64,000 nt of DNA from Ethanoligenens harbinense YUAN-3 (GTDB lineage: Bacteria; Bacillota; Clostridia; Oscillospirales; Ethanoligenentaceae): positions 2,369,501 to 2,433,500 of the forward strand of contig NC_014828.1 in assembly GCF_000178115.2 (NCBI RefSeq). The letters are read 5' to 3'. Shown here one piece after another: positions 50,393 through 60,204 of the stretch (positions within the stretch are counted from its first letter, which is position 1; each line of letters starts with the position of its first letter). Under the pieces are notes generated by a model. The model did not search any database and had not been told where the DNA came from. It saw only the letters and a list, made by a program, of their open reading frames with translations. The position numbers and the translations under genes were made by a program.

Positions 50393-51232
50393 TTATTTCT
50401 CGATCACCACGCCAATATCCGTCGGTTTTCCAAAATACAACGAGGACGTAGACAAGGCATCCACGCCGGTCCTTGCATATATTTCCGCGTTACGGTCCGT
50501 AATTCCGCCTGTCGCAATCAATTTCACCCGATCACTCATTTTGCGGATTTCAGCAACCATCGTTTGCAGTTCTTCCGGCGGTATTTTATCAAGCTGTATC
50601 CCGTCTACACCCACCCGACAAAGCTTTTTGGCATCTTCTAATGTTGTAACCTCCACGATGATGGCTTTGTCACAGGCCGCCTTTCTAAGCACCGCATAGT
50701 TTTTCAGAAGTCCTTCGATTCCACCCATAAATCGAAGATGCTGTTCGAATACCAAAATCGTTTCCGAAAGACCCAGCCGATGCGGCATTCCGCCTCCGGC
50801 AACGACCGCTTTGATACTCAGTTCCTTCGTTCCGGGAAAAAGCTTTCTGGTGGATAAAAGCTCAATATCCGGATTGACCGCCCGCGCTTTTTCCAGAAGA
50901 TTTCGGGTACGCGTCGCAATTCCGGAGGAGTACTCCAAAATGTTCATCGTCAGCCGCCATGCCATATGCAGATCCGCCACACGGCCCTTCCCTATCAGGA
51001 ACGTTTCGGACGGCTGCAACAAAGACCCCGACGAACTGGCTTTCACCGGTTCAATACCCAGTTTCTTAAAAATGCGAACAACTTCTTCCGTGCCGCAAAG
51101 AACGGCATGCTCCCGCGACGTGTATTTTATTACACCGGTCATCTCGCCGATACCCAGCAGCTTTGTAGTCAAATCCAAATACGGAACGTCTTCTTTGATG
51201 ATCTTATCAATGGTTTCATCCGCGATATACAT
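50393..51232 (-). CDS. modD: ModD-like / nicotinate-nucleotide pyrophosphorylase-family protein
   Basis: A 279-residue homologue of quinolinate phosphoribosyltransferase. The pattern (YLDLTTKLLGIG, SSSGSLLQPSETFLIGKG, LSTRKLFPGTKELS, GGITDRNAEIYARTGVDALSTSSLYFGKP) fits the ModD branch associated with molybdenum loci better than NadC, because NadA and NadB are absent and the N-terminus starts DETIDKIIKEDVPYLD. The exact reaction of ModD is unknown. It is sandwiched between the DUF134 regulator and the NifX-type fusion, which supports a metal-cofactor role. Confidence 0.82.
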   Translation of the reverse strand: MYIADETIDKIIKEDVPYLDLTTKLLGIGEMTGVIKYTSREHAVLCGTEEVVRIFKKLGIEPVKASSSGSLLQPSETFLIGKGRVADLHMAWRLTMNILEYSSGIATRTRNLLEKARAVNPDIELLSTRKLFPGTKELSIKAVVAGGGMPHRLGLSETILVFEQHLRFMGGIEGLLKNYAVLRKAACDKAIIVEVTTLEDAKKLCRVGVDGIQLDKIPPEELQTMVAEIRKMSDRVKLIATGGITDRNAEIYARTGVDALSTSSLYFGKPTDIGVVIEK

Positions 51233-54764: not shown

Positions 54765-54796
54765 AAAAACAGCCCTGCAAGTGCAAGGCTGTTTTT
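54765..54796. terminator. Bidirectional terminator
   Basis: AAAAACAGCC (54765-54774) pairs with GGCTGTTTTT (54787-54796). T runs occur in both directions, so it can end both the small plus-strand gene and the minus-strand telA operon. Confidence 0.9.
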
Positions 54797-54848: not shown

Positions 54849-56018
54849 TTATTTTTTCAACGCGATCAGCCGCTCTTTCAACGTCTTTTCCAGCGTGGCC
54901 AGCTCCGCTTCGGCCTGCTGCCGCTTGGCATGGCCCTCGTCCTGGATGCGGATCGTGTCCTCGATCGTGCTGATGAGGTCCGCGTTGACCTGCCGGAGCG
55001 TGTCGATGTCGATGACCCCGCGCTCGTTTTCTCTGGCGATCTCCGTGGTATTCTGCTTGAGCATGGCGGAATTTTTCAAGAGCAACTGGTTGGTCGTGTC
55101 CGTAACGGCCCGTTCCATCTGAAGCGCCGCCTGCTGCCGATTCATTCCAATGGCGATGACGATCTGGTTTTTCCACAAAGGGATGGTCTGCAGAATGCTG
55201 GTCTGGATCTTTTCCGCAAGCACCTGATCGCCCTGCTGGATAAGCTTGATCTGCGGGCAGGTCTGGATGGCGCTCATGCGGCTCAGGAGCATGTCGTGCA
55301 GCTTCTTTTCAAACCGCGCCGCCGCCTGCGCCAGATCGTTGGATGCCTGCGCGTCCATCGGGTCGCCGGTCTGCTGCGCTTTGGCCTGCACCGCCGGGAT
55401 GACCGTCTGCGTCAGCTCCTGCAATTTCATCCGACCGGCGGCGACCACAATGTCCAGCTGCTTGAGATATTCGAGGTTCTTCTTATACAGCAGGTCATAC
55501 ATCTCAATGTCCTTGAGCATGGTCATCCGCTCTTTGTCGAGCTGATCGGTGATTTTGTCAATCTGCACGCTGGTCTTATCAAACCCGGCCATAAACTTTT
55601 CGACCGATTTTTTTACACCGAACAGCTTGCCGAACAACCCGTCCTTTTTCCCATCGAGCGAATCGATGTCCACATTCTTGACGGTGACAATCAGGTTGGT
55701 GAGCAGCGAACCGGCATACCCCGCGTCTTTCGCCCGCACCTTTTCCAGGATGGTGTCGGAGAAAGACGCGATGCCGCTCTGCACCTCCACGCCGTACTGC
55801 GACACCAGCGCGGAATCGGTCACATCGATCTTAGCGGCAAGGGCCTTTGCTTTTTCGGTCTGCTCCGCATCCAGATAGAGATCCGGGAAATCCTGCCCAC
55901 CCTGGGCGGGAGCTGCGGCGGACGGCGCAGGCTGGATACCGGCGGCGTCAACCGGTTCCGGCGGCGTCAGAATCGTCGAGGCGATGTCCATTTCCAAGGG
56001 CGTTTTGTTTTCTTCCAT
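54849..56018 (-). CDS. telA: TelA/KlaA-family toxic anion resistance protein
   Basis: A 389-residue cytoplasmic, mostly helical protein of the TelA family. Family-typical segments are MLKDIEMYDLLYKKNLEYLKQLDIVV broken around residue 190-215, LIQQGDQVLAEKIQTSILQTIPLWKNQ and ALQMERAVTDTTNQLLLKNS. GGAGG lies seven bases before the ATG. TelA proteins are linked to tellurite and cell-envelope stress resistance, with an unknown mechanism. It is the last gene of the operon 59396-54849, 57 bp after the solute-binding gene. Confidence 0.92.
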   Translation of the reverse strand: MEENKTPLEMDIASTILTPPEPVDAAGIQPAPSAAAPAQGGQDFPDLYLDAEQTEKAKALAAKIDVTDSALVSQYGVEVQSGIASFSDTILEKVRAKDAGYAGSLLTNLIVTVKNVDIDSLDGKKDGLFGKLFGVKKSVEKFMAGFDKTSVQIDKITDQLDKERMTMLKDIEMYDLLYKKNLEYLKQLDIVVAAGRMKLQELTQTVIPAVQAKAQQTGDPMDAQASNDLAQAAARFEKKLHDMLLSRMSAIQTCPQIKLIQQGDQVLAEKIQTSILQTIPLWKNQIVIAIGMNRQQAALQMERAVTDTTNQLLLKNSAMLKQNTTEIARENERGVIDIDTLRQVNADLISTIEDTIRIQDEGHAKRQQAEAELATLEKTLKERLIALKK

Positions 56019-56075
56019 GCGGATACCTCCTACACTTATAAAGAACGATGTATCGATTATATGGTTGCCCTGCCG

Positions 56076-57161
56076 TCACTGGTTTTTCAGGGCCGCCAGG
56101 ATCGCGTTGATGACATCCGGGCTGGGTGTCTGGATGACCTGTGTGATCTGCGCGGGGACACCGGCAACCGGTACGTCGCCCACGTTGTTGACGACGCCCG
56201 ACACTCCCGTGCGGAACCCGTGCTTTTTCCACGCAATGGCCTGGATCTGCGGGTCTTTGAATGCGTTCAGCAGCACTTTGGCCTTATCGTCCAGCGCGAT
56301 GATGGTATGGGCGCTCCACAGCGTGGGGACGGGATAGAGGATGCGCATGTTGGACTTGACCTTGGTCCACACCGCCGGTTTTTCCGCTGCAAACTCGATG
56401 ATCTGGCTTTCATACCCAACAATCAGCGGGCAGGCCCCCTCGCCGGTGTTGGTATACTGGTCGAACAGATAAGCGGAAGACTCCTGCATATACCCGAGGT
56501 TGCCGAAATACGTTTTCAGCTGTGGCAGCACCGCCTGCACCGACGTGCTGTCCACTGCGGTCCCGTTGTTCAGGATATCCGCCAACAAACCCGAAAACAG
56601 GTTGCCGGAATTCGACGATTCCGGGTCGGTGGACTGCAGAACGATCTTCCCATACAGGTTGTTCAGGCCGATGTCCGACCATTTGGCGCCGGTGTTCATC
56701 AGAGAGACCATCTTTGGCATATCGATGATGTAGCTGACGCCGTTGTCCGTACGCACAATGCCCTGTTTTTCCAGCGCACCGGTGACATCCGCCCACGAGT
56801 AGACCACCAGCGGAGAATTGAGAACCGTCTGCGTGCCGGCGTTTTTGATGTTGCGCTGCCGAAAAACCTCCACCGCCGTCTGGCTGGACGGGAACAGGAA
56901 ATCCAGACCCGCGGTGCTTCCTTCCGCCATCTCGATGGAACCTGCTTTCTGGTAATCCAGCGTAATGCCGTATTTGTCCTTGAGAATCTTCTGCACGGAC
57001 GCGTCCTGCAGCAGGCCTTCCTTTTCGCTGCCGATCAGCCCGGTAAGCGTAACCTGTTTGACACTCGGCGCCCCCGTGCCGCCGCCGATTCCCAGCTTGA
57101 TGACCACGACCGCCACGATCGCCGCCGCGAGGATGAGAAAGCCGATGAGTTTTCGCTTCAT
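56076..57161 (-). CDS. Membrane-tethered solute-binding-like protein
   Basis: A 361-residue protein with one N-terminal helix (LIGFLILAAAIVAVVVIKL) and no lipobox, followed by a type II periplasmic-binding-protein fold (MAEGSTAGLDFLFPSSQ, LVVYSWADVTGAL, VGYESQIIEFA). There is no permease or ATPase in the operon, so it is more likely a sensor or scaffold than a transporter part. Its start overlaps the XpaC-like stop by four bases. The neighbouring vWA lipoprotein carries a related binding domain. Confidence 0.8.
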   Translation of the reverse strand: MKRKLIGFLILAAAIVAVVVIKLGIGGGTGAPSVKQVTLTGLIGSEKEGLLQDASVQKILKDKYGITLDYQKAGSIEMAEGSTAGLDFLFPSSQTAVEVFRQRNIKNAGTQTVLNSPLVVYSWADVTGALEKQGIVRTDNGVSYIIDMPKMVSLMNTGAKWSDIGLNNLYGKIVLQSTDPESSNSGNLFSGLLADILNNGTAVDSTSVQAVLPQLKTYFGNLGYMQESSAYLFDQYTNTGEGACPLIVGYESQIIEFAAEKPAVWTKVKSNMRILYPVPTLWSAHTIIALDDKAKVLLNAFKDPQIQAIAWKKHGFRTGVSGVVNNVGDVPVAGVPAQITQVIQTPSPDVINAILAALKNQ

Positions 57162-57778
57162 GACAGTTCCCCCGATTGTATCGTCTTGCGCAGCACGTTG
57201 ATTTCCGTCTCCAGATCGAACACATCTCCCTGTATGAGGTTTTCCAACTGCTTTTGGTAGCAGCCCACCAGCAGTTTGGCCACGTCCTCCGCTTTTTTCA
57301 TGGAGTCCCGGATCTCCGGCGAATCGAGGCCCTGCGCCTCGATCCCGCAGTATTTTTCAAAGATGGTACAGGACGTGCCCAGATAATACGAGAAGAACGC
57401 ACGGGCGCCGCGCACCTTCCCCGGATTTTTCTGGATATACTCAAAGATCTTGTCGCCCGTCTGGCAAATCTGCTGTGCATACCCCGCCATCACGGGGCTT
57501 TTGAGCTTCTTCACATATCCTTTGAGCTCCGCAAGCTTCTCATATCCATCGCCCACAATGGATTCAATCGACTGGTACTCGGACGCATCCTCCACGGTGA
57601 TCTTCCCGATGCGGAACCGGTTGGGGCTGCTGACGAAATACAGCCCGGCAAGGAACACCGCCGAAAGCACGATGGACAACCAGAGTGAAATGGCAAAGAG
57701 CAGATAAAGTACGATGAAAAACAGCACCGCCGCTGCCGGAAGCAGGATATCCCAGACCGGGGTTTTCTTTTTCGCCAT
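57158..57778 (-). CDS. XpaC-like (5-bromo-4-chloroindolyl phosphate hydrolysis family) membrane protein
   Basis: A 206-residue protein with two adjacent N-terminal helices (ILLPAAAVLFFIVLYLLFAISL, then LSIVLSAVFLAGLYFV) and a cytoplasmic helical domain (MAGYAQQICQTGDKIFEYI...KYCGIEAQGL...AEDVAKLLVGCYQKQLENL). This layout is that of XpaC, which is widely encoded next to TelA in Firmicutes. The start is ATG 57778 after GAGGTG. It is probably the membrane partner of TelA. Confidence 0.85.
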   Translation of the reverse strand: MAKKKTPVWDILLPAAAVLFFIVLYLLFAISLWLSIVLSAVFLAGLYFVSSPNRFRIGKITVEDASEYQSIESIVGDGYEKLAELKGYVKKLKSPVMAGYAQQICQTGDKIFEYIQKNPGKVRGARAFFSYYLGTSCTIFEKYCGIEAQGLDSPEIRDSMKKAEDVAKLLVGCYQKQLENLIQGDVFDLETEINVLRKTIQSGELS

Positions 57779-57788
57779 GAGAAACACC

Positions 57789-59396
57789 TCAATTGTAGCT
57801 TTTGGCCTGTTTGAACGCGGCAACCAGGTCTTTCCTGCCGTCAAACAGGGCCGCTTTGGACAGGGTGCCGAACTGCTTGAGCTGCGTGGGATCCGCGGCA
57901 CCGAACTCGATGCTGAAGATCGGGATGTCCTTGCCGATCGATTTATAGGTGCTTTGCACATTCGTAAAGGTTCGGCCGGTGTTGGACTGCCCATCGGTCA
58001 TGAGGATCACCGCCGGGTTGCACTGGCTGACATCCGCGCCGGCAAGCTGCTGCAGCGCCGTCATAACAGGCGTATAGATGTCCGTGCCGCCGCCGGCCTG
58101 CAGCTTCTGGATGTTCTGATCCAGCGTGCTCATGGAACTCAAGTCGCCACCGGTCGCATACCATTCCGCTTTGACGGAATCCGAGAAGGCGATGACCGCG
58201 ATCTTGTCCTGCGGCGTTGCCTGCAGGAAATACAGCTTCGCCGTGGACTGGTTCAGAATCATGTCCATCGCCTTTTTCACGCCCGTTTCCCCGCCGTTGT
58301 CGCCCATGCTGCCGCTGTAATCCAGGCAGTAAACCGTATAAGACGGCTTGCGCAGGCTGGTCTGGTAGAGGTTGAGCGCATCGACGAGAACACCGGCGTC
58401 CGGCATGCGGAAGGTGTTCAGCGTCCGGCTTGTATCGATCCCCCAAGCCGGATTGAACGTGGCGGGCTCGTTCACCGTGACCGTGCTGCCGGTCCCCGTC
58501 CTGCGGCCGTAGGACTGCAACGCTTTCTGGACTTTATCGGACAGCAGATACGATTGAAACTTCTTGAACGCGGATTCCTTGGCGCTGTTTGCGTTGTCGA
58601 TGTAACCCAGCGGAGAATCCGCGATCGTCAGACCATCCTTGGGATACACGACATAGAGCGGCTGCTTTTTCTGCTTGACCAGCTCTTTGTTGGTTTCAAT
58701 GATGACGTCCTCATAATTGACCATGGCGCTGTACCCGCCCTGGAGGTAGAGATCCTTGAGCCACTCGGAGCTGCCGGAAGAACGGTTCACGCCCGAGAGC
58801 AGTTCTTTCATCTGGTTCTGTGCCGTCTGGTCGTTCAGGTCCGCTTCCGTCAGCACATCCGGGTTGCCTCGCAGCGCATACCAGAACCCGATATACGCCG
58901 AAGCGCCGGAGTTGCTTTGCGTTGCGGACGTCATGCAGAATTTCAGCTTGCCGGCCTTCACATCCTGCAAAATGGTATCAACCGTCACATCATGGCCGAC
59001 ATAACCGAGCTGCTCCGCCAAATCTTTTTCCACCCCGAAGACCACCGGGCTGGTCATGATCGACTGCTGCAACTTGACCTTGTGAGCCTTGTCTCCGAGG
59101 TTGATCCACATGCTGTTGGCCGGCCACACCGCATCATAGGGGATGTTCCCCTGCTGCAGCGTCTGCATAATGTCCACCGAGCCTTTGTAGACCATGTTGA
59201 CTTTGATGCCCGTCTGTTTGGTAAACTGGGTGATGATGGGCGCGATCTCCTTGTTTTCGGACGCGGAGAGCACCGTCAGGGAAACCGCGGCGTTCTGCGA
59301 GGCGCTACCGCACCCGGAAAACCCAACCGCAAGCAGTACCGCCATCGTGAACGAGATTTTTGACTTGTGTTTCCGGAAAAGCCGCATGATGTTCAT
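57789..59396 (-). CDS. Lipoprotein with solute-binding domain and von Willebrand factor A domain
   Basis: A 535-residue extracytoplasmic lipoprotein. The lipobox is GFSGC. Residues about 45-310 form a family-1-type solute-binding fold (LTVLSASENKEIAPII, YDAVWPANSMWINLG, VVFGVEKDLAEQLGY). Residues about 350-535 form a vWA domain with a MIDAS motif, DYSGSMG (about 358) and later MTDG (about 463). A binding domain fused to a metal-dependent adhesion domain suggests a surface sensor that recruits a partner when ligand or metal is bound. GGGGGA precedes the ATG at 59396. First gene of the telA operon. Confidence 0.88.
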   Translation of the reverse strand: MNIMRLFRKHKSKISFTMAVLLAVGFSGCGSASQNAAVSLTVLSASENKEIAPIITQFTKQTGIKVNMVYKGSVDIMQTLQQGNIPYDAVWPANSMWINLGDKAHKVKLQQSIMTSPVVFGVEKDLAEQLGYVGHDVTVDTILQDVKAGKLKFCMTSATQSNSGASAYIGFWYALRGNPDVLTEADLNDQTAQNQMKELLSGVNRSSGSSEWLKDLYLQGGYSAMVNYEDVIIETNKELVKQKKQPLYVVYPKDGLTIADSPLGYIDNANSAKESAFKKFQSYLLSDKVQKALQSYGRRTGTGSTVTVNEPATFNPAWGIDTSRTLNTFRMPDAGVLVDALNLYQTSLRKPSYTVYCLDYSGSMGDNGGETGVKKAMDMILNQSTAKLYFLQATPQDKIAVIAFSDSVKAEWYATGGDLSSMSTLDQNIQKLQAGGGTDIYTPVMTALQQLAGADVSQCNPAVILMTDGQSNTGRTFTNVQSTYKSIGKDIPIFSIEFGAADPTQLKQFGTLSKAALFDGRKDLVAAFKQAKSYN

Positions 59397-60204
59397 ATTA
59401 TGTCCCCCGATTCTGCATTTCTCAGGAACAGGACTTCGCTTTCCGTCACCGGCGCCACACCGTTCCGATGGGCACAGATGCATCTTTATGGAAACAGATG
59501 TTTTCCCTTTCCATTATACCATATATTTGCTGTTTCAGCGCTCTTTGAAATCAGCCTATGAACCGGGTCGGAAAAACAAATTCCAGCCGCAACACTGCCG
59601 GAACGCTTTCATGCAAACCGCCCGACTGCCCGGCCGAGGTGCTGCGGCGCGCATGAAAAAAGAGGGCCGCAGCCCTCTGGATTGGGTCCTTTGAAGGTAC
59701 CTCACTTCAGTGGCAGGTATTCGATAGATTCACAGGATATAAAACGGGCATCTACTTTTTCATGTAGGTGCTCGTTTTCTGCCCTGCATATTGACAAAGA
59801 CACCGTTATCTCAAAGTGAAATGTGTCATGGTGTTTCTGGGATTAATTCCACAATATTTCAATCATTCTATTCTGGCTTTTTTGGTGGATACGCATTAAA
59901 AGGATAGCGCATATACTGACAAGCTTGTTATTGTGGAATATGATGCACTTAAAGGATGACTCTGCACTTCGAGGGGTAATCCCGTTGGATTGTACTCATA
60001 AATAAATATGCGGTTCAGTTGTACCCCATTCGGGAACCACTGAGCCGCGTTTTTATTGCTTGTTTTCCGCAATGGTTTCCACCAAAGGCCATATTGCTCT
60101 TGCAAAGGTATCTATCGCCTATTGGGAATAACGTTCTGAAAGTGTTACGCCATCGATTTCCTGCATCTCGTATTCTCGTGATTTTTCTTTTATGTTTTCC
60201 AGTT
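59397..60204. other. Non-coding region with isolated hairpins
   Basis: About 800 bases with no supportable gene. AGAGGGC/GCCCTCT (59661-59678) makes a minus-strand terminator with a T run read at 59655-59660. A plus-strand stem, GCGGTTCAGTTGT/ACCACTGAGCCGC (60010-60022 with 60036-60048), is followed by GTTTTTATT. The first stands about 260 bp upstream of the vWA gene and may end a gene that has been lost. Confidence 0.5.

Follow-up and report, generated by a model that had tools for sequence, protein, structure and literature searches.

A four-gene operon that joins two solute-binding proteins to XpaC and TelA in Ethanoligenens harbinense and other Clostridia

Operons that encode XpaC together with the toxic anion resistance protein TelA belong to the σW regulon in Bacillus subtilis (PMC3498285) and to the CesSR regulon in Lactococcus (PMC3139573), and XpaC is under the control of LiaR in E. 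faecium (PMC10269926). According to Collins 2010, quoted in PMC12791056, a telA mutant of Listeria shows raised sensitivity to nisin and tellurite, and TelA has been proposed to form sub-membrane structures (PMC7824862). In Ter systems, TelA accompanies TerF-type vWA proteins, again with a proposed sub-membrane response (PMC7824862). Solute-binding proteins (SBPs) with a type II fold and a conserved cleft are best known from ABC importers of the sulfate/molybdate/ferric/AfuA group, and the binding protein HptA of the S. aureus HptRSA system signals glucose-6-phosphate to a kinase without transporting it (PMC8774646). Here, we describe an operon of Ethanoligenens harbinense YUAN-3 that shares one or more features with each of these systems. 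We found no published description of this gene set in the open-access literature searched; a key comparative paper of 2012 on Ter/TelA systems, which lies outside it, may contain one.

The window, that is, the whole stretch of 64,000 nucleotides that was analysed, covers positions 2369501-2433500 of a genome made up of one contig of 3,008,576 bases. The operon consists of four genes only, all on the minus strand between 59396 and 54849. Gene 1 (57789..59396; 535 amino acids) encodes a lipoprotein with an SBP_bac_11 and a vWA domain (SBP-vWA), gene 2 (57158..57778; 206 amino acids) encodes XpaC (Halogen_Hydrol, PF10112), gene 3 (56076..57161; 361 amino acids) encodes a second solute-binding protein (SBP2), and gene 4 (54849..56018; 389 amino acids) encodes TelA (PF05816). 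The stop of gene 2 and the start of gene 3 share exactly 4 bp; an earlier note on this DNA had given this gene order and the overlap of the middle two genes, and both are where it placed them. Upstream of gene 1, a consensus reading by eye picked out a possible extended -10 promoter element, TGGTATAAT (59513..59521, minus strand), and downstream of telA a hairpin followed by a T tract (AACAGCC..GGGCTGTTTTTT; 54765..54796, minus strand), also recognized by eye, is likely an intrinsic terminator. A promoter and terminator scan of the region returned promoter-like sites in roughly the number found in shuffled sequences, and both the TGGTATAAT element and the telA-downstream hairpin were absent from its output. 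About 3.6 kb beyond telA, at 50393-51232 of the window, lies an ORF that by eye resembles ModD (molybdenum transport protein/nicotinate-nucleotide pyrophosphorylase-like), adjoined by an ORF with a terminal domain named by eye as NifX-like.

Since XpaC and TelA are encoded together, as they are in the B. subtilis xpaC-yaaN (telA) operon and its relatives in Listeria and Lactococcus, this locus belongs with the xpaC-telA operons. Those operons, as described, have no SBP genes, whereas in the present type SBP-vWA and SBP2 are obligatory members and TelA an optional one; the operon is a receptor-bearing variant of XpaC-TelA systems. It resembles HptA in having a solute-binding fold as a proposed sensor without a transporter of its own, although HptA partners with a histidine kinase and a response regulator and the operon has neither. 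With Ter systems it shares the combination of a vWA protein and TelA, but the vWA domain here is predicted to be extracellular and is fused to an SBP, no TerC, TerD or nucleotide-signal gene is found among the four operon genes, and the TerC of the genome is encoded about 1.2 Mb away. Unlike the SBPs of ABC importers, finally, those encoded here come with a fused vWA domain and a signal anchor in an operon without a permease or ATPase gene.

The linkage of these genes was followed in 80 loci (L006-L085) obtained by a scan of named genomes, and their distribution in an evenly drawn sample of 391 Clostridia genomes. SBP-vWA directly precedes XpaC in 74/74 Clostridia loci that extend far enough, SBP2 follows XpaC in every locus whose contig reaches it, and the 4-bp overlap of the XpaC and SBP2 genes is preserved in 52 of about 78 relatives, an arrangement that is real and far from chance. 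TelA follows SBP2 in 47 of the 72 loci with room. The fixed core is therefore SBP-vWA, XpaC and SBP2, with TelA as a usual, dispensable addition. SBP2 is encoded in 11 of the 391 genomes, and a full-length match to SBP-vWA occurs in exactly the same 11 and only in those, a co-occurrence expected by chance with a probability of about 1e-21. These genomes fall into seven families, and presence is patchy even within genera. TelA is found in 10 of the 11, versus 93 of the 380 others (Fisher 1e-5), and in one genome, G433, the core genes are accompanied by no TelA anywhere. In an unrooted TelA tree, four standalone copies cluster (99/97) but within the linked ones, and one standalone branch is very long; a dedicated operon-linked TelA clade is only suggestive. 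At Oscillospirales loci without TelA (L013, L022, L026, L063 and similar), unrelated genes follow SBP2, in L003 a flavodoxin-like ORF; genomes with such operons may carry TelA elsewhere (G124, G138). Of the 80 named relatives, at least 54 have record titles that label them as chicken-gut isolates or MAGs, which may be an effect of sampling but hints at a stress or ligand of the bird gut.

No permease or ATPase gene lies within the four-gene operon. When the 612 neighbouring ORFs of the 80 loci were clustered by BLAST, no neighbour, permease and ATPase included, recurred at a fixed place, so neither a permease nor an ATPase belongs to the operon; ABC ATPases occur near 20 of the 80 loci at scattered positions. 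A hidden permease or ATPase beside the operon was rejected on this result. The composition, the topology and the lack of a transporter, as the earlier note had claimed them, are thus borne out and conserved among relatives, and the 80 orthologous loci are not ones that always contain a permease and an ATPase.

The gene 1 product matches Pfam SBP_bac_11 (E 7e-24) and VWA (E 1e-12), has a lipobox at Cys29, and is predicted to be an exported lipoprotein with its vWA domain outside the cell. Its predicted model (pLDDT 88) comprises a binding-protein domain (about residues 38-300) and the C-terminal vWA domain (about 352-535). Fold searches placed the former near sulfate, AfuA and ferric SBPs (Z 22-25), and the hexose-phosphate SBPs nearby are AfuA, P5PA and 6lkg (Z 22.9), the last of which we take to be HptA. 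The vWA domain superimposes on 4fx5 (Z 22.6, 172 residues, 1.9 A) and has a complete MIDAS of the DxSxS, T, D type (D359, S361, S363, T438, D468), all five residues of which are invariant in 26/26 Clostridia rows and in rows from four phyla. Because the MIDAS is intact, the domain probably binds a metal and a partner. The earlier note called the domain adhesive, but the partner may equally belong to this very complex.

SBP2 is labelled a hypothetical protein in the database records examined and has no family match in Pfam or NCBIfam. An AlphaFold2 model built from 45 relatives (mean pLDDT 91) has the predicted two-lobed fold of a type II solute-binding protein, with ModA and sulfate-, 2-aminoethylphosphonate-type and ferric-binding proteins as its best matches (sulfate-binding protein 5um2: Z 21.9, 275 residues, 3.5 A). 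A signal anchor without a lipobox occupies about residues 2-25 of the N-terminus, so that the earlier note was right, by both model and anchor, to regard gene 3 as encoding a membrane-tethered solute-binding fold. The profiles of SBP2 and gene 1 align with an hhalign probability of 97% over 315 columns; the two binding proteins are thus related, and SBP2 and the gene 1 SBP domain probably arose by an old duplication.

The binding clefts of both proteins were assessed by comparing the six cleft-lining strand-helix junctions of each model with the rest of the domain, using circular window shifts. The cleft junctions, where the motifs SNSG, GSS and YE are located, are the most conserved part of both SBP domains in Clostridia and in four phyla. 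No circular shift reached the conservation of the gene 1 cleft in either set (over 250 shifts), and for SBP2 none did in the four phyla and 1/271 did in Clostridia. With conserved clefts and an invariant MIDAS, both binding proteins look functional, and ligand binding has probably been kept in each. Positions at such junctions hold the anion in sulfate-type binding proteins; by analogy, an anionic ligand is a reasonable guess, the fold neighbours of the two SBPs including cation and sugar binders as well.

XpaC, whose ATG start is preceded by a GAGG-type ribosome-binding site, matches its Pfam family (Halogen_Hydrol/XpaC) over positions 7-191 of 191 (E 3e-27, 96 bits) and has by hydropathy an N-terminal hydrophobic hairpin (residues 6-52), followed by a soluble domain of about 150 residues that is predicted to be cytoplasmic. 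It diverges much faster than its operon partners, with 22-31% identity to the window protein versus 40-51%. TelA, soluble and present in a single copy in the window genome, matches PF05816 over positions 2-331 of 332 (E 2e-114, 383 bits). A sequence search for solved structures related to TelA or XpaC gave no convincing match.

Homologues of SBP2 at 25-31% identity were found in plasmid records outside the Firmicutes, and an SBP-vWA gene adjoins most of them. Sphaerotilus (L120), Variovorax (L124) and Nonomuraea (L122) encode SBP2, TelA, SBP-vWA and a two-TM protein of 206-226 amino acids, and Deinococcus (L121) has the same set without TelA; in these sets the two halves are swapped relative to the Clostridia order of SBP-vWA, XpaC, SBP2 and TelA. 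The two-TM protein resembles XpaC in size, position and topology and is a candidate for it; in hhalign it matches XpaC at 41% over the membrane part only, and the sequence comparison did not score above a control with the soluble part shuffled. Two Streptomyces plasmids carry what, by their gene content, appear to be looser actinobacterial versions, one with a divergent SBP2 without SBP-vWA (L123:7815-9861) and one with SBP-vWA next to two hypothetical proteins and with neither TelA nor SBP2 (L125:5004-8333). On the Variovorax plasmids (L124:3524-16840), the set is flanked by a flotillin/OB-fold gene pair on one side and by Wadjet (JetA) genes on the other, a setting of the defence type.

From the exported SBP-vWA and SBP2, the membrane hairpin and soluble domain of XpaC, the soluble TelA and the linkage of their genes, as read from sequence and models, we tentatively propose that the four products form one membrane-spanning sensor-and-response complex in which the SBPs are receptors and not transporter parts, acting through XpaC on TelA, a reading that we favour while holding it to be somewhat short of probable. 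The clefts of SBP-vWA and SBP2 would bind a small anionic solute, such as an oxyanion, an organophosphate or a phosphonate-like compound, and binding would alter the contact of the two SBPs with each other, via the vWA MIDAS, and also their contact with the XpaC hairpin. XpaC would then relay the change to TelA, which would assemble under the membrane and stiffen or shield the envelope, thereby protecting it from bacteriocins, cell-wall antibiotics or toxic anions; in operons without TelA, XpaC would work by itself or rely on a TelA gene at another site. The complete transmembrane signalling path, including its ligand, contacts, signal direction and output, is one that we infer. A complex is favoured by the obligate linkage of adjacent genes in the same 11 of 391 genomes with XpaC between the two SBPs, by the enrichment of TelA in those genomes, and by the recurrence of the same set in other phyla, and is weakened by the lack of TelA in a third of the operons and in the whole of G433, and by the fourth protein of the non-Firmicutes sets being no more than a candidate XpaC. 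The receptor role is favoured by the lack of a recurrent transporter neighbour and by the conserved clefts and invariant MIDAS, and ligand sensing by the proximity of the SBP models to sulfate, molybdate, hexose-phosphate, 2-aminoethylphosphonate-type and ferric-carbonate SBPs and, by analogy, by the signalling role of HptA. An envelope role is favoured by the place of XpaC/TelA operons in envelope-stress regulons and weakened because the phenotype data come from simple XpaC-TelA operons, other than this one.

The conserved clefts of two membrane-tethered SBPs whose nearest folds bind oxyanions, together with a TelA family named after tellurite resistance, would also suit a surface decoy that captures an extracellular toxic anion or peptide, with TelA and XpaC only anchoring it or repairing the membrane and no signal passing. 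We consider this unlikely, since tethered binding proteins should offer little buffering capacity and the strict linkage to XpaC speaks for an assembled complex and not for loose capture. Rather unlikely too is that the SBP folds are protein-protein platforms, binding no small ligand, within a structural complex of the envelope that the vWA domain holds: joining complexes is typical of vWA MIDAS domains (such roles are listed in PMC5898192) and the SBP-vWA fusion is unlike the build of a transporter receptor, but the six cleft-lining junctions are what is most conserved in both domains.

A barrier to the entry of phages or plasmids, of the kind put forward for Ter/TelA systems, would agree with the patchy distribution in Clostridia, with the Wadjet and flotillin genes beside the Variovorax set, and with the proposal that TelA and a vWA protein form sub-membrane structures that block the entry of phages or xenobiotics (PMC7824862). 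This appears improbable, because PADLOC gave no match worth keeping, so that a known defence system was rejected, a search of viral contigs found no relatives, and the defence-type neighbourhood was seen once only. Least plausible is that the SBPs are orphans serving an ABC importer with its permease and ATPase genes at another site of the genome, a role that their fold and Pfam class would allow but that is opposed by the vWA domain of gene 1, the signal anchor of SBP2, which is no lipoprotein, the linkage to XpaC and mostly TelA, and the lack of a fixed-place transporter gene near the 80 loci.

That these genes keep together in many bacteria with no pump among them points to a so far undescribed sensor of chemical or antibiotic stress. 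More doubtful, though worth entertaining, is the wider view that the operon represents an undescribed kind of transmembrane receptor, present in four or more phyla, whose two related SBPs, joined by a vWA MIDAS, directly control a TelA scaffold without a transporter or kinase. SBP2 represents a binding-protein family missing from Pfam and NCBIfam, and the operon is probably another case of binding proteins used for something besides transport. The role and the trigger of TelA and XpaC have long been open despite their commonness in the envelope-stress regulons of Gram-positive bacteria, and an XpaC-TelA version with its own receptors provides a direct handle on them, in that the ligand of its SBPs would reveal what the system watches.
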